DNA of 64,000 nucleotides from Thioalkalivibrio nitratireducens DSM 14787 (lineage in GTDB: Bacteria; Pseudomonadota; Gammaproteobacteria; Ectothiorhodospirales; Ectothiorhodospiraceae). A program made the translations under genes and the position numbers. Position 1 is the first letter of the stretch. Each line of letters starts with the position of its first letter. Positions 8,236 to 44,823 of the stretch are shown one piece after another. The stretch spans positions 1,488,001 through 1,552,000 of the forward strand of contig NC_019902.2 in the NCBI RefSeq assembly GCF_000321415.2, in the 5' to 3' direction. The notes under the pieces are model-generated. The model searched no databases, was not told the DNA's origin, and was given only the letters and a program-made list of their open reading frames with translations.

Positions 8236-9488
8236 TCGCCGGCACCTTCAATGTCGAGTGTAACTTCCACCGGCAGACCGTCGACCGCGTTGGGGAGGCG
8301 GGTGACCACCAGTACATCGCCGGCTCGCAGCTCGGGATGACGGATCAGTGCCAGGGTGCGGCCGTCTTCGCCCACCTGCTCGCCGAGCCGTTCGACCCGC
8401 AGGCCCTGCATGCGCTCGTCGACCACGCGGTAGACCCGGTCGCGGCCGTACAGCGCCTCGAACGGGACGGGTACGCTATCCGGCTGTGCGGGAAGTTCGA
8501 GCCGAAGATTCACGAAACGGTTCAGCGGCAGTGCGGCGCCGCCCTCGGTGACCCGGAACACCGCCCCGATTCCCGCCTCGCCCGGGCGGGTCTCGCCCGC
8601 GATGCGGACCAACTGTGCCCGAATCTGAGCGCCGTCGACCCGGGCGCGTGCGGGCAACGGACCATGCCGCTCCAGTAGCCCGGTGATCGTCGCAATCATC
8701 GCATCGGGCAGGCTCGCGCGAATCTCGACATCGTCGGTTGCGTACAGTCGCACGAGCGGGTCACCGATCCGCACCCGTTCCCCCATGCTCGTGTGGAGTT
8801 CAACCACGCGGGCGGCCACCGAAGCGGTGATCTCGGTACGCGACAAATCGAGCGCGGCACGATCCCGGGCGGCGCGGGTGCGTTCCTTGCGTGCCTCAGC
8901 CTGTTCGAGGCGGGCAGGTGCGTCGGCCACCGCCTGTTCGCGGGCAATGACCGCGAGCCGTGCCTGCTCCAACAGTCGCTGCGCTTCGTCTACGGACGCG
9001 TCCGAGCCGAGGTTGCGGGTGTGCAGATCCTGCGCCCGGTCGAGTCCGCGCTGGCTGATCTGCAGGAGCTGCCGTTCCCGGTTCAGCGTGCGCTCGTCGC
9101 TTTCGGCACGCAACTGTTCGCTGGAGATCATCGCTTGCGCTTCGCGCAGTTCCGCTTCGCGTTGGGTCAGCGTTAGCCGTGCCTCGGAGGGGTCAATCCG
9201 CAGCAGCACGTCGGCGGGCTTGACGATGTCGCCTTCGCGCACGGGCACGTGCGCGACGATACCCTCGATAGCGGCACGCAGTGTGGCCGTTTGCGGCGAC
9301 TGAACACGCCCGAAGAGTTCGGCGCTCGGGCGGTACACCCCCGGCTCCACGGGCATGCCCCGCACCGGCCAGATCCGCTCGCTGGTCACCGGCGTGGGCG
9401 CGGAAGGCCCCGTCATCCGCAGGGCGACGAATCCGGCGCCCGCCGCGGCGACGATCAGGAGCGGAAGCAGCCTTCTGGCGATCCTCAT
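8232..9488 (-). CDS. RND efflux periplasmic adaptor subunit (membrane fusion protein)
   Basis: 418 residues from the ATG at 9488. An N-terminal signal-anchor (RRLLPLLIVAAAGAGFVAL) is followed by a lipoyl/barrel-sandwich half with PVREGDIVKPADVLLRIDPSEA. A long alpha-helical hairpin (about residues 100-190) is rich in Leu, Glu, Arg and Ala heptads, then come the second lipoyl half (TASVAARVVELHTSMGERVRIGDPLVRLYA) and beta-barrel domains. Such proteins link the RND permease to an outer-membrane channel. The 4-nt overlap with the permease gene makes a two-gene operon. GAGG lies about 11 nt before the chosen start. The drug or metal substrate cannot be told from sequence. Confidence 0.88.
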   Translation of the reverse strand: MRIARRLLPLLIVAAAGAGFVALRMTGPSAPTPVTSERIWPVRGMPVEPGVYRPSAELFGRVQSPQTATLRAAIEGIVAHVPVREGDIVKPADVLLRIDPSEARLTLTQREAELREAQAMISSEQLRAESDERTLNRERQLLQISQRGLDRAQDLHTRNLGSDASVDEAQRLLEQARLAVIAREQAVADAPARLEQAEARKERTRAARDRAALDLSRTEITASVAARVVELHTSMGERVRIGDPLVRLYATDDVEIRASLPDAMIATITGLLERHGPLPARARVDGAQIRAQLVRIAGETRPGEAGIGAVFRVTEGGAALPLNRFVNLRLELPAQPDSVPVPFEALYGRDRVYRVVDERMQGLRVERLGEQVGEDGRTLALIRHPELRAGDVLVVTRLPNAVDGLPVEVTLDIEGAGE

Positions 9489-37410: not shown

Positions 37411-37740
37411 CTACCCCCCGAGGCCGGTGATCGCGGCGTGCATCTGAAAATAGGCAAGCATGAACTCGAACATCATGCGCCAGGCCAGTTCGGCGAGCAG
37501 AAAGGCGACGACCGCATACCCGGCCGCCCATGCCACGGGGGCGCGCAGACGCCCGGGCAACACGCCTTCCGCGGTCAGTCGGGCCTGTACGCGCCTCCGA
37601 AAACGCCGCGCAAGGTCGAACACGACGACCGGAATCAGCAGGGCGCCGGTGTAATAGGCCGCGAACAGCACTCCCGGTGTCACAAGTTCCCGGAAGAACA
37701 GAAAATCCCGTACCCAGAGGACGGCAGCGGTGTCGGCCAT
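37411..37740 (-). CDS. small membrane protein, DUF4282-like
   Basis: 109 residues from an ATG at 37740. Two hydrophobic helices (VTPGVLFAAYYTGALLIPVVVF and VAWAAGYAVVAFLLAELAWRMMFEFMLAYFQMH) are separated by a basic loop with RRFRRRV. The FRELVTPGV start and RMMFEFMLAYFQMH end resemble DUF4282 proteins; function unknown. It is divergent from the sigma-54 activator gene, with 337 bp between them that must hold both promoters. No other gene is seen in that gap. Confidence 0.65.
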   Translation of the reverse strand: MADTAAVLWVRDFLFFRELVTPGVLFAAYYTGALLIPVVVFDLARRFRRRVQARLTAEGVLPGRLRAPVAWAAGYAVVAFLLAELAWRMMFEFMLAYFQMHAAITGLGG

Positions 37741-38077
37741 GATGGTCCACGAACTGGATTCGGGGCAGAGGATAGCCGCCCGAGCCGGACTGCAGCCAGC
37801 CCGGGCCGAAGGTTCCACCTCCACCCGCAAGGCCCAGTCGCTCCGGTGGGGATGCCCGCGCCGAACCGGCGATCGGTATCCGCTCCAGGCTGGAGGATCG
37901 GACAGTTTGCAGTCGACGACACGATCCGTTTGCTCCGGTGGCAGCAGCGGGACCGCGGACCGGACGAAAATCCCCATATCGTGTCGGGAGAAACGGGTCC
38001 GCCCCGACCGGACCCATAGACTCGGCGGCCCCTTGTTCAGGTTTCCGACGGTTATCAACAATCGAGATCTCATCGCG

Positions 38078-39415
38078 ATGGGCAAGACACACAAAGACGA
38101 CCATGCATTGTTGCAAAGCCTGGTGGAGGCGCACCCGGAGCCCTTTGCACTGATCGACGAACATTTCACGATCGTCGCGTGCAACAAAAAGTACGCGGAC
38201 GCCTACACCGACCTGACTCCCGACGATATCGTCGGAATGAAATGCCACGAGGTCTCGCACAAGAGCACCGACCGCTGTGACCTGAACGGGGAGGAGTGCC
38301 CGCTGGAGCGGGTGTTCGAATCCCGCCATCCGGTGCAGGTCGTGCACCAGCATTTCGATCGGAATCGGGCCCCGTACTACGTGAACGTGCATGGAAGCCC
38401 GATTCGGGCGCAGAGCGGGGGCGTGCGCTACTTTGGCGAGGCCATGGCTCCGATCAGCCGGGTGGACGATCTGGACTTCGACGACGAGCGGCTGATCGGC
38501 TGCTGCCCGTCGTTCGTAAACATGCTCGACAACCTGAGCCTGGTCGCGCAGACCGATCTCCCGGTGCTGATTCACGGCGAGACCGGGACCGGCAAGGAAC
38601 TGGCGGCGCTGTTTCTGCATCGCAAGTCCCGGCGGGCCGACCGGGAGTTCGTGACCATCGATTGCACCACCCTGTCCGACGCGATGTTCGTCGCGGAACT
38701 GTTCGGGCACGAGGCCGGTGCGTTTACCGGTGCGGCGGCGACACGCAAGGGGCTGGTCGAGGTCGCGGACGGCGGCACGCTGTTCCTGGACGAGTTCGGC
38801 GAAATCTCCCCCGAGATCCAGACGAAGCTGCTGCGGGTACTCGACCGGGGAACCTTCCGGCGGCTGGGCAGCAACCGCGAGCGCAAGGCCAATTTCCGGC
38901 TGATCTGCGCGACCAACCGCAATCTCGCGCAGCGCGTGGAGGCCGGCGCATTCCGGGCCGACCTGTTTTACCGGGTCAACAGCATGCAGATCACGCTGCC
39001 CGCGCTGCGCCACCGGAAGGAGGACATCCCGCAGCTCGTCGATTTCTTCCTGCGCAAACTGATGCCGGCGAACCTCGCCCCGCTGATCAGCGACGCGGCG
39101 CTGGAGGCTCTGCTGCGCTACGACTTCCCGGGCAATGTCCGCGAGCTGAAGAACACCCTGGAACGTGCGGTCGTGGTCGCGCGTGGCGGCACGCTGGAGC
39201 CGCAGCATCTGCCCGCCGAGTTGCGGCACCCACAGCCTTCGGCAAAGTGCGACGACGGCGCGGACTGCGGCTACCACGATGCCTGCGCCGACGATCCGGG
39301 AATCATTCGCGCCGCCCTGGCGCGCTTCGGCGGCAACCGCCGCAAGACGGCCGCCTTTCTGAAAGTCAGCGAGCGCACGCTCTACCGGCGGCTGAAGGCT
39401 CTCGGCCTGACCTGA
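38078..39415 (+). CDS. sigma-54-dependent transcriptional activator with Cys/His-containing PAS domain
   Basis: 445 residues. N-terminal PAS domain (about 10-125) with an unusual cluster C56, H57, H61, C67 and C74 that could bind metal or sense redox state. The AAA+ domain has Walker A GETGTGKE (from residue 167), the sigma-54 contact loop GAFTGA (from residue 214) and Walker B GGTLFLDEF. The C-terminal Fis-type helix-turn-helix is NRRKTAAFLKVSERTLYRRLKALGL. The stop is 5 bp before a phased repeat array and about 150 bp before a sigma-54 promoter feeding the cytochrome/fcc operon, so that operon is the likely target. A longer in-frame extension upstream is not supported. Confidence 0.92.
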   Translation: MGKTHKDDHALLQSLVEAHPEPFALIDEHFTIVACNKKYADAYTDLTPDDIVGMKCHEVSHKSTDRCDLNGEECPLERVFESRHPVQVVHQHFDRNRAPYYVNVHGSPIRAQSGGVRYFGEAMAPISRVDDLDFDDERLIGCCPSFVNMLDNLSLVAQTDLPVLIHGETGTGKELAALFLHRKSRRADREFVTIDCTTLSDAMFVAELFGHEAGAFTGAAATRKGLVEVADGGTLFLDEFGEISPEIQTKLLRVLDRGTFRRLGSNRERKANFRLICATNRNLAQRVEAGAFRADLFYRVNSMQITLPALRHRKEDIPQLVDFFLRKLMPANLAPLISDAALEALLRYDFPGNVRELKNTLERAVVVARGGTLEPQHLPAELRHPQPSAKCDDGADCGYHDACADDPGIIRAALARFGGNRRKTAAFLKVSERTLYRRLKALGLT

Positions 39416-39420
39416 CCCCG

Positions 39421-39490
39421 TTCTGCCATCCTCGGCGGTGGCAGAAACCTGGCAGAACTCTGGCAGCGATCTGGCAGAAATCTGGCAGAA
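39421..39490. promoter_or_regulatory. phased activator-site array: five TGGCAGAA units at 11-bp period plus one inverted unit
   Basis: TGGCAGAA (one copy TGGCAGCG) begins at 39439, 39450, 39461, 39472 and 39483, exactly 11 bp apart, so all copies face the same side of the helix. An inverted copy TTCTGCCA is at 39421-39428. The array lies about 77-146 bp upstream of a -24/-12 promoter, the usual distance for an upstream activating sequence. The activator gene ends immediately before it. Confidence 0.75.
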
Positions 39491-39566
39491 CCCGCGGCGT
39501 TTCCCGTGGCGGGCCCATGGTGTCGATTCCCTTCCAAATCAAATACCTGCTCCCTGATTCCCCTGT

Positions 39567-39582
39567 TGGCACTATAGATGCC
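39567..39582 (+). promoter_or_regulatory. sigma-54 (-24/-12) promoter
   Basis: TGGCACTATAGATGCC matches the consensus TGGCACGNNNNTTGCW with the GG and GC doublets at exact spacing; one mismatch falls in the TT before GC. The predicted start of transcription is near 39593, leaving a leader of about 70 nt before the cytochrome start codon at 39662. Confidence 0.75.
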
Positions 39583-39661
39583 TGTGACCTGGATGCGGCT
39601 GGCGGCGATGGGCCGCGTCGCCAACGGAAGCATTCAAGAAAACATCAGCAGGAGGAGTGAG

Positions 39662-41161
39662 ATGAACGCTGCAAGACGCAGGGTGGGGTTATGGTTAGGG
39701 TTTGGGGTCGGTCTAATGGGGATACTGCTGACCGGGGGGCTCCTGTCAGCAACCCCGGCACACGCGGTCGAGGAGGGGGTGACGTTCCCCTTCTACCCGA
39801 GCTTCCTGCAACTCGAGGACGGTAAGACCACCTCGCTGGAAGACTGGTCCGACCCGATGGTCTGCGGGGGCTGCCATCCGCGGCAGTACGAGGGGTGGAA
39901 GAGTTCGATGCATGCGAACGCCTTCATCGACCCGGTGTTCCAGGCCGAATGGGCCAAGGGCTACCAGGACACGGACGGGGAGGTGCTGAACCTCTGCGGC
40001 GGCTGCCATACGCCGATCGGCGTGATGACCGGCACCGTGAAGTACGATCCGGATGTTGGCAAGTACGGTGGCTTCACGGCACCCGGCGTGGCGGCGATGG
40101 GGGTGTCGTGTGACGTTTGCCACAGCGTGACGGACACCAACGCCCGGCACACGACGACCGGCAACCCGGGCAACGCGTCGCTGGTACTGGCCCCCGGCGA
40201 TGTCAAGCGGGCGACGCTGAAGGACGCGGTTTCGCCGTTCCATGCCACCGAGTACTCGGAACTTCACGGCCGGGCCGAGCTGTGCGCCAACTGCCACAAC
40301 ATCTTCCACCCCAACAACAACTTCCCAATCGAGCACACCTACGACGAGTGGAGGATGTCGGCCTACGCGCAAAACGACATCCAGTGTCAGGACTGCCACA
40401 TGGTTCCGGTCGAGACGGCGATCCGTGTCGCCGACACGATGACCCGGCCGCACGATCTTCCCGATCACGGTCTAGAGGGAATGGCCGGCGTGGGTGCTGC
40501 CGGTCCGCGGGAACTGGTGCACGATCACGGCTTCGTTGGCGGCAACACCGTGATCGCCGGGGTGCTGGGTGTTCCCGGTGCCGAGGATAACCGGGCCGAA
40601 GCGATCAAGCGCCTGCAGAATGTCGCCGATCTCGATATCGAGATCATCCCGGGCATGCAGGGTGCCAACCTGCTGCGTGTGAAGGTCAGCAATGCCCGGG
40701 CCGGGCATCATCTGCCGACCAGCCTGACCTTCATCCGCCAGGTCTGGCTCGAAGTCGAGGTCCGGGACGACCAGGGCCGGTTGCTGCTGTCGTCCGGGGC
40801 ACTGGAAGACAACCGCGTGCCCGAGGATGCGGTGATGTTCACCAACAAGTCGGTCGACCAGGACGGCAACCTGACCGTCGACCCGTGGCGGATCGCCGGC
40901 TTCGTGCACATGAACACGATCCCGCCCAAGGGGTATCGCTACGGCACCTACTCGTTCCGGCTGCCCGAGGATGCTTCGAGCTTCACCGTCGATGCCAAGC
41001 TCAATTACCAGTCCTATCACCAGGATCTGGCGGACGATCTGCTCGGCGAAGGGGCCATCGAGGTCCCGGTGGTGACGATGCGCGAACTGACTCGCCGCTA
41101 CAACGCCGCCGACCTGGAGCGGGCCGACGCCGGCCGGGATTCCGCGGTCGCCCACCGCTGA
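39662..41161 (+). CDS. periplasmic pentahaem cytochrome c (cytochrome c554-like)
   Basis: 499 residues; the ATG at 39662 has AGGAGGAG about 7 nt upstream. Residues 1-36 are a signal peptide ending AHA. Five CXXCH haem sites occur at C68, C112, C150, C208 and C242, with further His residues (SSMHANAF, ELHGRAEL, HDHGF) available as distal ligands. The N-terminal half resembles the cytochrome c554 family. The C-terminal ~220 residues are a haem-free beta-rich domain. Electron transfer in the periplasm is expected; the substrate is unknown, but an oxidised sulfur compound is plausible from the fccAB context. It is first gene after the sigma-54 promoter. Confidence 0.88.
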   Translation: MNAARRRVGLWLGFGVGLMGILLTGGLLSATPAHAVEEGVTFPFYPSFLQLEDGKTTSLEDWSDPMVCGGCHPRQYEGWKSSMHANAFIDPVFQAEWAKGYQDTDGEVLNLCGGCHTPIGVMTGTVKYDPDVGKYGGFTAPGVAAMGVSCDVCHSVTDTNARHTTTGNPGNASLVLAPGDVKRATLKDAVSPFHATEYSELHGRAELCANCHNIFHPNNNFPIEHTYDEWRMSAYAQNDIQCQDCHMVPVETAIRVADTMTRPHDLPDHGLEGMAGVGAAGPRELVHDHGFVGGNTVIAGVLGVPGAEDNRAEAIKRLQNVADLDIEIIPGMQGANLLRVKVSNARAGHHLPTSLTFIRQVWLEVEVRDDQGRLLLSSGALEDNRVPEDAVMFTNKSVDQDGNLTVDPWRIAGFVHMNTIPPKGYRYGTYSFRLPEDASSFTVDAKLNYQSYHQDLADDLLGEGAIEVPVVTMRELTRRYNAADLERADAGRDSAVAHR

Positions 41162-41324: not shown

Positions 41325-41636
41325 ATGAAGCCACTACTGATGAGCATCGTGACCGGAGTGATCCTGACGGCTGGCATGACCGCGGCACAGGCCGCCGACG
41401 TGGAGGCCGGCCAGGCGAAGTACATGGCCTGTCAGGGGTGCCATGGTCCCCAAGGGCAGGGCCAGGCGATGTTTCCGCCGGTCGCCGGCAAGGATGCCGA
41501 GTACCTGGCAGACGTGATGAAGAAGTACCGCGCCGGGGAACAGGTGGGTCCGAACAGCATGATGATGATGCCCCACATGGTGAACCTGAGCGACGAGGAC
41601 ATTGCCAATCTCGCGGCCTATATGGCGTCGCTGTAA
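41325..41636 (+). CDS. small monohaem cytochrome c (class I)
   Basis: 103 residues. Signal peptide of about 23 residues (ending AQAA-D). One CXXCH site (ACQGCHGPQGQG) and a Met-rich loop GPNSMMMMPHMVNLSDEDI that supplies the axial methionine. Periplasmic electron carrier of the c553/c5-like type. GGAG lies 11 nt upstream. It follows the pentahaem cytochrome after a 163-bp gap with a palindrome. It may be the electron acceptor of flavocytochrome c or of the pentahaem protein. Confidence 0.88.
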   Translation: MKPLLMSIVTGVILTAGMTAAQAADVEAGQAKYMACQGCHGPQGQGQAMFPPVAGKDAEYLADVMKKYRAGEQVGPNSMMMMPHMVNLSDEDIANLAAYMASL

Positions 41637-41765: not shown

Positions 41766-42287
41766 ATGTCGGAGCAAAACTCCGGGACGGTTCCCGGCAG
41801 GCCTGCGGTTTCGGCGGCCCGACTGAGCGGGTTGGCGGTACTGGTGATCGTGATGGCACTGGCCTTCGCCGGCATGGGGCTGTTCATGTTCAACATGGGC
41901 CGCGACATGAGCACGATGACCCGGGCGGTCACGCAGATGGGCCTCGACGTCTCGGCGATGGCCGACGACATGACGTTCATGAGCGGGCGCATGGCGGTGA
42001 TGGCCGACAGCATGGTCGAGGGTCAGGCGGGGATGTCGCAGGATCTGACCGGGGTGCGGTCCGGAATGGAGCTGATGGCGCGCGATGTGCGCAGCATGGC
42101 CGAAAACATGGACGACCTGGCACGCAATATCCGCGGCATGGCCGGGAATATCGGAACGATGAACCGTTCGATGTCGCAGATGAACCAGTCGATGGGGCAG
42201 ATGACCGGCACGATGGGCCGGATGTCGGTGGATATCAACAAGTTTACCCGGCCAGAGAGTCTCGCGCCGATGTCACCGTTTCGGTGA
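41766..42287 (+). CDS. methionine-rich membrane-anchored coiled-coil protein
   Basis: 173 residues. One transmembrane helix near residues 23-46 (LSGLAVLVIVMALAFAGMGLFMF) is followed by a ~115-residue helical region with Met at a and d-type spacing (MSTMTRAVTQM, MAENMDDLARNIRGM, MNRSMSQMNQSM). There are 28 Met in total. The layout predicts a periplasmic coiled-coil stalk anchored in the inner membrane. No family recognised. It sits between a cytochrome and fccA in the same direction, so a scaffold for the cytochrome complex or a soft-metal (Cu) binding role are both possible; neither is shown. Confidence 0.75.
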   Translation: MSEQNSGTVPGRPAVSAARLSGLAVLVIVMALAFAGMGLFMFNMGRDMSTMTRAVTQMGLDVSAMADDMTFMSGRMAVMADSMVEGQAGMSQDLTGVRSGMELMARDVRSMAENMDDLARNIRGMAGNIGTMNRSMSQMNQSMGQMTGTMGRMSVDINKFTRPESLAPMSPFR

Positions 42288-42429: not shown

Positions 42430-42741
42430 ATGATGAAACCCGTGTTTCGAATCGCAGCAGGGGGCGCGATGGTGCTGGCTTGCGGCCTCGTAGGGTCGCA
42501 GGCGATGGCCGACGCCGGTCGCGAGGCGATGATCACCAGTTCGTGCTTCAGCTGTCACAGCATCGACGCGACGGGCAACATGCCGAATCTTGTGGGTTAC
42601 CCGCGCGACCTGATGATTTCCCAGATGCAGATGTTCAGCAACGGGTCGCGTCCTTCCACCATCATGGACCGGATCGCAAGGGGGTACAGCGAGGCGGACT
42701 ACGTCGTGATGGCCGACTACTTTGCGACCATCGAACAATAA
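42430..42741 (+). CDS. fccA: sulfide dehydrogenase cytochrome subunit FccA (monohaem)
   Basis: 103 residues with a signal peptide (cleavage near AMA-D). One CXXCH site, SSCFSCHSIDATGNMPNLVGY, with a methionine further on in QMQMFSNGSRPSTIM as axial ligand. It is the short monohaem form of FccA. The start is an ATGATG pair just after AGGAGG. The partner FccB is encoded 20 bp downstream; together they oxidise sulfide in the periplasm and pass electrons to cytochrome c. Confidence 0.9.
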   Translation: MMKPVFRIAAGGAMVLACGLVGSQAMADAGREAMITSSCFSCHSIDATGNMPNLVGYPRDLMISQMQMFSNGSRPSTIMDRIARGYSEADYVVMADYFATIEQ

Positions 42742-42761: not shown

Positions 42762-44048
42762 ATGACGGATCTGACTCGTCGCAGTTTCTTGAAGGCCGCC
42801 GGCATCGGCGGCATGACACTGGCGGCCGGGTGGACGGCCGCCGCCCGCTCGTCGGAAAAGGCACATGTCGTGGTCGTGGGTGGCGGTTCGGGCGGCGCCA
42901 CCGCAGCCAAGTACGTAAAACGTTTCGCGCCCGAAATGCAGGTGACGCTGATCGAACCGAAAGCCACCTATCACACCTGCTATGGCAGCAACTGGGTGCT
43001 CGGCGGCCATGCCACGATGGACGACATCGAGCAGACCTACGGCGCGCTGAAGGAGCGCCACGGCGTGAACGTGGTGCAGGACACGGTGACCGAAGTCGAC
43101 CCCGAGCGCCGGACCGTGACGACCGCGGGCGGCGCGACGATGAACTACGACCGCCTGATCATGTCGCCGGGAATCGACTTCCGATACGGCGCGGTGCCGG
43201 GCATTACCGAGGCCGATGCGGAGCGGGTTCCACATGCCTGGAAGGCCGGCGAGCAGACGGTGCTGCTGCGCCGTCAGCTCGAGGCGATGCCCGACGGCGG
43301 CGTGTTCGTGATCGTGGCGCCCGGCAACCCGTTCCGCTGCCCGCCGGGGCCGTACGAGCGGGCGTCGATGGCCGCACACTATTTCAAGCAGGCGAAGCCG
43401 CGCTCGAAGATCCTCATCCTCGACAACAAGGAGAACTTCTCCAAGCAGGGGCTGTTCATGGCCGGCTGGGACGAGCACTACGGCGACATGATCGAGTGGC
43501 TGCCAAGCTCCGAGGGTGGCCAGGTCGAGGAAATCGACGTGGCCACCCTGACCGCGTACTCCGACGGCGGATTCGGCGAGTTCAAGGCCGACGTGCTGAA
43601 CTACATCCCGCCCCAGCAGGCAGGCGTGATTGCACAGCGTTCGGGCCTGACCGGCGACGGCTTGTGGTGCCCGGTCGATGGCAAGACCTTCGAGTCGACC
43701 ATTCATGCCGGCATCTACGTGATCGGCGATTCCTGCGTGGCCGGGGCGATGCCCAAATCGGGGCATTCGGCCAACAACCAGGGCAAGGTCGCCGCCGTTG
43801 CGGTGATCCGTGACCTTGCCGGGCTCGAGCCCGAGACGGCGTCGACCGCGAACACCTGCTATAGCCTGATCACGCCCGATCATGCGATCAGCGTGGCGGG
43901 CGTCTACGCTTACCAGGACGGGGACATCGTCTCGGTCGAAGGGGCAGGGGGCGTCAGTCCCGCGCACGCACCGGCACCGATTCGGAGGATGGAAGCCATC
44001 TACACCAAGGGCTGGTACACCGGCATCGTGGGCGACATCTGGGGCTGA
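42762..44048 (+). CDS. fccB: sulfide dehydrogenase flavoprotein subunit FccB
   Basis: 428 residues. A Tat signal peptide (TRRSFLKAAGIGGM) is followed by a FAD fold beginning VVVVGGGSGGATAAKYVKRF. C73 in TYHTCYGSN matches the cysteine that binds FAD covalently in flavocytochrome c. C193 (FRCPPGP) and C303 (LWCPVDG) correspond to the redox disulfide pair of the SQR/FCSD family. Catalyses oxidation of sulfide to sulfur with FccA as electron acceptor. It is followed by a strong terminator, which closes the operon. Confidence 0.95.
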   Translation: MTDLTRRSFLKAAGIGGMTLAAGWTAAARSSEKAHVVVVGGGSGGATAAKYVKRFAPEMQVTLIEPKATYHTCYGSNWVLGGHATMDDIEQTYGALKERHGVNVVQDTVTEVDPERRTVTTAGGATMNYDRLIMSPGIDFRYGAVPGITEADAERVPHAWKAGEQTVLLRRQLEAMPDGGVFVIVAPGNPFRCPPGPYERASMAAHYFKQAKPRSKILILDNKENFSKQGLFMAGWDEHYGDMIEWLPSSEGGQVEEIDVATLTAYSDGGFGEFKADVLNYIPPQQAGVIAQRSGLTGDGLWCPVDGKTFESTIHAGIYVIGDSCVAGAMPKSGHSANNQGKVAAVAVIRDLAGLEPETASTANTCYSLITPDHAISVAGVYAYQDGDIVSVEGAGGVSPAHAPAPIRRMEAIYTKGWYTGIVGDIWG

Positions 44049-44163: not shown

Positions 44164-44823
44164 ATGATACAGCAGCGAAAACCCGGTCTGGCGACCCTGA
44201 TCGCACTGGCCGCACTGACGACCGCCGCGGCGAGCGCGGACGACTTCGATACCCTGGAGGTGGGGATCACCCCGGAACTGGACTTCTTTGCGGTCCAGCA
44301 CCAGGGTGAGACGGTCTGGGTGCAGCGCAACCAGAATACCGGCAACACCGTCGATCCCGAATATGCGCTGACTTCGCGACCCTGCCCGCCGTTGTGCATA
44401 CAACCGATGCAGCTTGCGCCTGGGGTCGAAACCCTGGGTGAGCTCGAGTTCATCGCGTATCTGGAACGCGTCGGACGCGATCCGGATGTGCTGGTCATCG
44501 ATTCCCGCACCGCCGACGAGTTTGCGGCCGGCGCCATTCCCGGTGCCGTGAACGTCCCGTGGAACGACCTGGTCGGTACCGCGGGTGCGGTCGATTTCGT
44601 CGTCGAGGTGCGCATGGAGGAGTTCGGCGTACGGCGCAGCGCAGATGGCTGGGACTTCTCCGATGCCAGAACGCTGGTGCTCTACTGCAACGGGCCGTGG
44701 TGTGGCCAGACCCCGTCGAACATCCGGGCGCTGCTGGATCTCGGCTACCCGCCCGAACGGCTGAAATGGTATCGCGGCGGAATGCAGGCCTGGCACAACC
44801 TGGGCTTCACCGTGGTGGACTGA
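44164..44823 (+). CDS. periplasmic rhodanese-like protein
   Basis: 219 residues. Signal peptide of ~25 residues ending ASA-D. The rhodanese domain (about 95-219) has VLVIDSRTADEFAAGAIPGAVNVPW and the active-site loop CNGPWCGQTPS with the nucleophilic cysteine and a second Cys five residues on, then KWYRGGMQAWHNLGF. It probably moves sulfane sulfur in the periplasm, which would fit processing of the sulfur product of FccAB. The N-terminal 90 residues are unassigned. It lies after the fccB terminator, so it may have its own promoter, and runs into dusA 8 nt later. Confidence 0.85.
   Translation: MIQQRKPGLATLIALAALTTAAASADDFDTLEVGITPELDFFAVQHQGETVWVQRNQNTGNTVDPEYALTSRPCPPLCIQPMQLAPGVETLGELEFIAYLERVGRDPDVLVIDSRTADEFAAGAIPGAVNVPWNDLVGTAGAVDFVVEVRMEEFGVRRSADGWDFSDARTLVLYCNGPWCGQTPSNIRALLDLGYPPERLKWYRGGMQAWHNLGFTVVD

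Follow-up and report, generated by a model that had tools for sequence, protein, structure and literature searches.

A cluster of TGGCAG half-sites at 39421-39488 is, with a probability of roughly three in four, the upstream activating sequence (UAS) of the adjacent FisR-type sigma-54 activator and would switch on a cytochrome, flavocytochrome c and rhodanese operon. The cluster was found in a 64,000-nt stretch of the Thioalkalivibrio nitratireducens DSM 14787 genome, referred to here as the window. Our reading is based on sequence, conservation, enrichment and spacing, from which we infer binding, the signal, ring assembly, looping and the transcription of the genes as one operon.

The array lies between the stop codon of the activator gene (39413-39415) and the start of a cytochrome gene (39662). 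Five TGGCAG half-sites on the plus strand, at 39439-39444, 39450-39455, 39461-39466, 39472-39477 and 39483-39488, follow each other at exact 11-bp steps. They are preceded by an inverted half-site on the minus strand, TTCTGCCA at 39421-39428 with its CTGCCA core at 39423-39428, and 5 bp separate this unit from the activator stop codon. The original prediction had described the five 11-bp steps, the inverted sixth unit and the 5-bp distance, all of which the sequence bears out. It had also taken the repeat unit to be an 8-mer, which needs correcting: the 8-mer TGGCAGAA is present in four of the five units, the third direct unit reads TGGCAGCG in its place, and the unit common to all is a 6-bp TGRCAG half-site. 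Tandem Repeats Finder, applied independently, places the array at 39439-39490 (period 11, 4.7 copies, score 76). When the background rate is taken from the remaining 30 TGGCAG on the plus strand of the window, chains of at least five at a fixed step are expected about 7e-11 times by chance (23 steps, both strands). The arrangement is not that of a classical dyad UAS, with inverted repeats at fixed spacing; it comprises one inverted and five direct half-sites, and the gap of its inverted pair is 10 bp, compared with 4 bp in the common dyad of FisR-like loci.

The adjacent activator gene (38078-39415, plus strand) has Pfam matches to PAS_4, Sigma54_activat and HTH_8, and its translation contains GAFTGA. 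It thus combines the sensor domain, the AAA+ domain with GAFTGA and the C-terminal Fis-type helix-turn-helix (HTH) of FisR-type activators. Its PAS region carries C56, C67 and C74, which are invariant in a 13-row alignment (A1), and the C-X10-C-X6-C triad is common to all 31 aligned sequences, the window's included. The spacing of 11 and 7 is also that of the Cupriavidus FisR cysteines, C53/C64/C71. Judged by these sequence features, the activator is of the FisR type; among the 25 NCBIfam models listed of 27 matched, none reached its cut-off. FisR answers sulfane sulfur. The genome of the window (4,002,350 bases) contains rpoN, and the activator of a sister genome, G011, is 97% identical to the window's. 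Upstream of the activator gene (37500-38078), no dyad was found within two mismatches; 12 of 32 comparison loci have an exact dyad there. In many FisR-like proteins (L007, L205 and others), the sigma-54 contact loop reads GAFTGC, GAYTGC or GAFTGS and not GAFTGA.

Downstream of the array, six genes follow on the plus strand. Pfam matches and motif counts identify a c554-type multiheme cytochrome c with five CXXCH motifs (39662-41161), a monoheme cytochrome c (41325-41636) and a small monoheme cytochrome that is fccA-like by position (42430-42741). Between the latter two lies a gene with a sub-threshold DUF1664 match and no assigned function (41766-42287). The series ends with fccB, encoding the flavoprotein of flavocytochrome c sulfide dehydrogenase (42762-44048; Pfam FCSD, best solved relative 5n1t_A), and a gene for a rhodanese-domain protein (44164-44823). 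The neighbours of the activator include flavocytochrome c and rhodanese genes, which it may control.

Homologues of the multiheme cytochrome were found among 96 relatives in G011 (96% identity), G019 (62%) and G013 (52%, cut by a contig end), with two more distant copies in G061 (49 and 50%); a wider genome draw added one in G179 (52%). T. nitratireducens and T. paradoxus form a cluster of their own (PMC5328954). The activator adjoins the cytochrome in G011, G013 and G019, the contig of the last holding only the 3' end of the activator gene. In G011 the array is that of the window minus one 11-bp unit, with four direct units. G013 has the layout CTGCCA-N5-CTGCCA-TGGCAG-N4-TGGCAG-A-CTGCCA, and in G019 four half-sites form a perfect palindrome, CTGCCA-N4-CTGCCA-TGGCAG-N4-TGGCAG. 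In all four loci, the window's included, half-sites stand directly past the activator stop codon and a GG-N10-GC element occupies the equal aligned place, 70-80 bp past the last half-site. The 600 bp upstream of the two G061 homologues and the G179 homologue contain no TGRCAG. The expected conservation of the array in relatives therefore stands for its half-site content, which is kept in G011, G013 and G019, and fails for the exact five-unit form, which was seen only here.

The difference of exactly one 11-bp unit between the sister genomes is what would be seen if the array were a functionless tandem repeat born of slippage, with only the dyad 39423/39439, or nothing, bound. Against this, the 6-bp cores are intact at all 30 positions, whereas the 5-bp spacers are intact at 19 of 25 (0 versus 6 mismatches; Fisher p 0.006), and at two further loci where this activator occurs the half-sites persist in layouts that are not repeats. 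These observations, together with the enrichment and the tree described below, make a functionless array of this kind improbable.

The element at 39567-39582 (plus strand) was originally described as a correctly spaced -24/-12 promoter. Its sequence, TGGCACTATAGATGCC, does have the GG-N10-GC form and would place the transcript start near 39593. It matches 9 of the 12 positions of the sigma-54 consensus and is weaker evidence than the array. Because the window contains 47 GG-N10-GC sites of at least 9/12 on its two strands, including 4 that arise within the array, the weight of the promoter lies in its conservation and not in its match score; the match by itself is unremarkable. Across the four loci, the promoter-like scores are 9/12 in the window, 10 in G011, 9 in G013 and 9 in G019. 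Between array and promoter, an IHF-like site, AATCAAATACCTG at 39537-39549 (plus strand), has one mismatch to WATCAANNNNTTR, the IHF consensus. The corresponding site has one mismatch in G011 and two in G013, and G019 has none within two mismatches; the whole window contains 5 sites within one mismatch.

All four neighbouring pairs of units within 39439-39488 read as GG-N10-GC at 9/12, equal to the nominal promoter. The array resembles sigma-54 sites because TGGCA is common to both motifs and the units step by 11 bp. It might thus consist of overlapping sigma-54 sites at which polymerase docks, serving as decoys, reserve or extra promoters. This is very improbable given that the arrays of G013, G019 and a paralogous locus described below step by 10 bp or unevenly, or contain units that face the other way, with no such site formed within the arrays of G013 and G019, the two that were scored. 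Tandem sigma-54 promoters were ruled out as the main reading, since the related arrays break the 11-bp step.

We counted TGRCAG in 350 bp upstream and 300 bp downstream of the activator genes with the cysteine triad in the loci collected for comparison. A first filter for exact GAFTGA or GAFSGA (50 loci) missed members with GAFTGC or GAYTGC, G013 among them; widening the loop motif gave 66 FisR-like genes, with the G019 activator left out for its incomplete gene. Beside these 66 genes there were 179 sites, or 4.33/kb, versus 0.78/kb for 66 other sigma-54 activators drawn from the same set of loci, and a reversed-motif control gave 1.33/kb and 0.91/kb, respectively. Pairs of TGRCAG no more than 34 bp apart were present in 29 of 66 FisR-like loci versus 1 of 66 others (reversed motif, 5 and 2), and runs of at least three head-to-tail half-sites at 8-13 bp in 7 of 66 versus 0 of 66. 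Four of these seven are two paralogous loci each of the window's genome (G000) and G011; the others are L128, L130 and L218. A hexamer count that presupposed no motif, made on the first 50 loci, placed CTGTCA/TGACAG and CTGCCA/TGGCAG in the top 15 enriched on either side of the gene. Such enrichment, confined to FisR-like loci, speaks against a functionless repeat.

The distances between half-sites are also far from random. In a set from which repeated layouts and the G011 copy were dropped and to which four loci were added, the distance is 8-13 bp for 47 of 72 adjacent pairs, or for 43 of 67 when the window is left out, whereas 2,000 random placements gave a mean of 7.8 such pairs, out of 33.4 pairs on average, and a maximum of 20. 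Split by orientation, the fractions at 8-13 bp are 14/23, 13/17, 12/20 and 8/12, and a smaller rise appears at 20-22 bp. From these sequences, half-site spacing looks constrained and orientation does not. Mapped on a tree of the 66 activators, the head-to-tail arrays require no fewer than four gains or losses. This argues against such arrays having been gained once and, again, against a functionless repeat. We read the TGRCAG half-site as belonging to the FisR-like activator family, whose operators would be built from half-sites and not only from dyads.

Clusters are not universal: 39 of 70 FisR-like loci lack any cluster of at least two exact half-sites in the 350 bp upstream and the 300 bp downstream of the gene, and two Pseudoalteromonas FisR-like loci (H3 and H4) have no half-site clusters. 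Six genomes of the same genus (G002, G004, G009, G021, G025 and G026) have exact dyads 2.7-3.0 kb upstream of the FisR-like gene, two of which, in G025, stand just before an ORF that by eye is cytochrome-bd-like. Distance may thus explain part of the FisR-like loci without an adjacent cluster.

Arrays of this type recur at other loci. The window's genome has a second FisR-like gene (G000:C1:2978374-2979639), whose product is 40% identical to the window's activator and far from it in the activator tree. Past this gene lie five direct half-sites and an inverted one (steps 10, 10, 12, 9 and 10) and then a 9/12 promoter-like site; G011 has an equal layout. About 260 nt past that promoter-like site lies a GC stem with a T-run (L072, G000:C1:2971000-2987000, reverse strand, approximately 8938-9225), before the next oxidoreductase-like ORF, possibly a leader RNA or a small RNA. 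Burkholderia latens carries an inverted half-site and four direct ones (steps 10, 11, 9 and 12) between its FisR-like gene and divergent genes for a metallo-beta-lactamase-fold protein, an FAD-oxidoreductase and TauE, which we take from gene order to be PDO, SQR and TauE. Cupriavidus metallidurans CH34 has five half-sites on either side of its FisR-like gene, one array facing a PDO-like/SQR-like pair as in B. latens, the other facing a cytochrome gene and TauE. The CH34 promoter-like sites score 10/12 and 11/12 but have GA or GT for GC at -12, as does the B. latens site (11/12). A search with the Burkholderia protein in the order of G190 gave a match in 1 of 48 genomes, G190 itself. The array is thus not without parallel: comparable ones occur at the paralogous locus of the same genome and in Cupriavidus and Burkholderia.

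Exact CTGYCA-N4-TGRCAG dyads number three in G000, one within the paralogue array and one inside a predicted ORF; they are not enriched across this genome (3 versus 2 for the reversed control). The third is 223 bp before an operon with a 10/12 promoter-like site between. The first gene of this operon has a sub-threshold match to cytochrome bd subunit I, and a flavocytochrome c flavoprotein gene comes later. G031 and G034 have a similar ORF set, judged by eye from first residues, beside a FisR-like gene with an equal dyad type.

Half-sites before this operon and upstream of activator genes also bear on another suggestion, in which the dyad and repeats would work at the RNA level to terminate or attenuate the activator transcript, since these sites lie outside that RNA. 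In its favor, RNA 39416-39500 folds better than shuffled sequences (z -2.81, with 2 of 200 shuffles equally good). Complementary and repeated units fold well in any case, and the good fold is probably a by-product of the repeats. With no T-run after the array, a terminator was ruled out, and we give an RNA role very little credence.

As a genome-wide marker, the repeat is unspecific. Among 369 genomes of the class, 19 have TGGCAG triplets with gaps of 3-6 bp and 14 have the reversed control; that such repeats arise apart from these activators, about as often as the control, speaks for a functionless repeat. Inspection of 19 triplet loci, one per genome (leaving out the paralogue array, G347:C286 and G399:C13), found a FisR-like gene adjoining only the window's; the other 18 had no FisR-like ORF (0/18), and 8 of them lie inside coding-like ORFs. 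Because triplets are near the control rate and only the window's locus has a FisR-like neighbor, the repeat alone proves nothing, and its place beside a FisR-like activator carries the argument. Elsewhere in the sister genome, at G011:C1:504495-504590, about ten copies of a 10-bp unit, TGGCAGCCCC, form a tandem repeat that resembles the half-site array. The overall claim of the original prediction, an activator array and a sigma-54 promoter serving a sulfur-oxidation operon, gains support in part, by comparison, from the half-site enrichment beside FisR-like genes and the layout kept in four loci.

Sigma-54 activators are usually described as dimers binding dyads. Five half-sites standing head-to-tail do not all fit symmetric dimers, so that single HTHs would bind at least partly, each TGRCAG being one HTH half-site. 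In the mechanism we propose, the PAS cysteine triad would sense sulfane sulfur (polysulfide or persulfide), and the activator would assemble on several half-sites, spaced by one helix turn and lying on roughly the same side of the DNA, with the AAA+ ring built on the array. From this UAS, about 105-170 bp before the expected transcript start, the activator could then be brought by looping, perhaps helped by IHF, to the sigma-54 polymerase at 39567-39582, and would open the promoter of the operon for the multiheme cytochrome, flavocytochrome c and rhodanese.

The FisR proteins of Cupriavidus pinatubonensis and Acinetobacter baumannii, sigma-54 activators of PDO/SQR genes, share with this activator the N-terminal sensor, AAA+ domain, Fis HTH and, putatively, sulfide-oxidation targets, and TGRCAG arrays stand beside the C. 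metallidurans relative. NorR of Escherichia coli differs in that its sites are dyads, whereas the half-sites here are in free orientation. The three NorR enhancer sites scaffold a hexamer (PMC2941729). FisR drives a PDO/SQR operon in A. baumannii, where it is without the conserved triad cysteines (PMC7315123), and a review describes activation via sulfur bridges between cysteines (PMC12170894). In contrast to these PDO/SQR genes, the target here would be a multiheme cytochrome/flavocytochrome c operon. CbrB of Pseudomonas putida also uses several short non-palindromic subsites on one helix face with IHF and sigma-54, and first binding as monomers has been proposed (PMC6296734); however, it has three subsites of another motif with centers 20-25 bp apart, compared with up to five head-to-tail at one turn here. 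The gene of AnfA in Rhodobacter capsulatus is directly upstream of its target, as here, with two sites and then an RpoN site, but these are two TAC-N6-GTA dyads (PMC7294313). In the same genus, the Thioalkalivibrio thiocyanate dehydrogenase cluster has a sigma-54 activator near fccAB, but it is described as pairing with a histidine kinase in a two-component system and lies beside thiocyanate dehydrogenase; the excerpt of that paper describes no operator for it (PMC5744179).

The titles and abstract openings listed in the literature searches describe no TGRCAG operator, and a search for FisR with Thioalkalivibrio found no paper; a 2017 FisR paper may already describe such sites. The sigma-54 promoter, the FisR-type activator and the UAS are already known as parts. 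As far as this literature search reaches, what is new is the TGRCAG half-site, together with its arrays at one-turn spacing and in free orientation.

More tentatively, and at clearly less than even odds, FisR-type activators may read a spacing code instead of a dyad code: several half-sites (up to seven were seen), about one turn apart whatever their orientation, with a single HTH of the future AAA+ ring on each. Operators could then evolve by duplication, deletion or flipping of single units, and the number of units would set the threshold and steepness of the response to sulfur. With a five-plus-one array at each of its two paralogous loci, this genome would then allow its two FisR proteins to use common operators. 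The natural series of 4, 5 and 6 half-sites in direct, inverted and symmetric layouts makes the stoichiometry directly testable. If our reading is true, an orientation-free half-site family would show the HTHs of an AAA+ ring engaging DNA singly, and would provide a searchable operator for sulfane-sulfur regulation in sulfur-oxidizing and heterotrophic proteobacteria.
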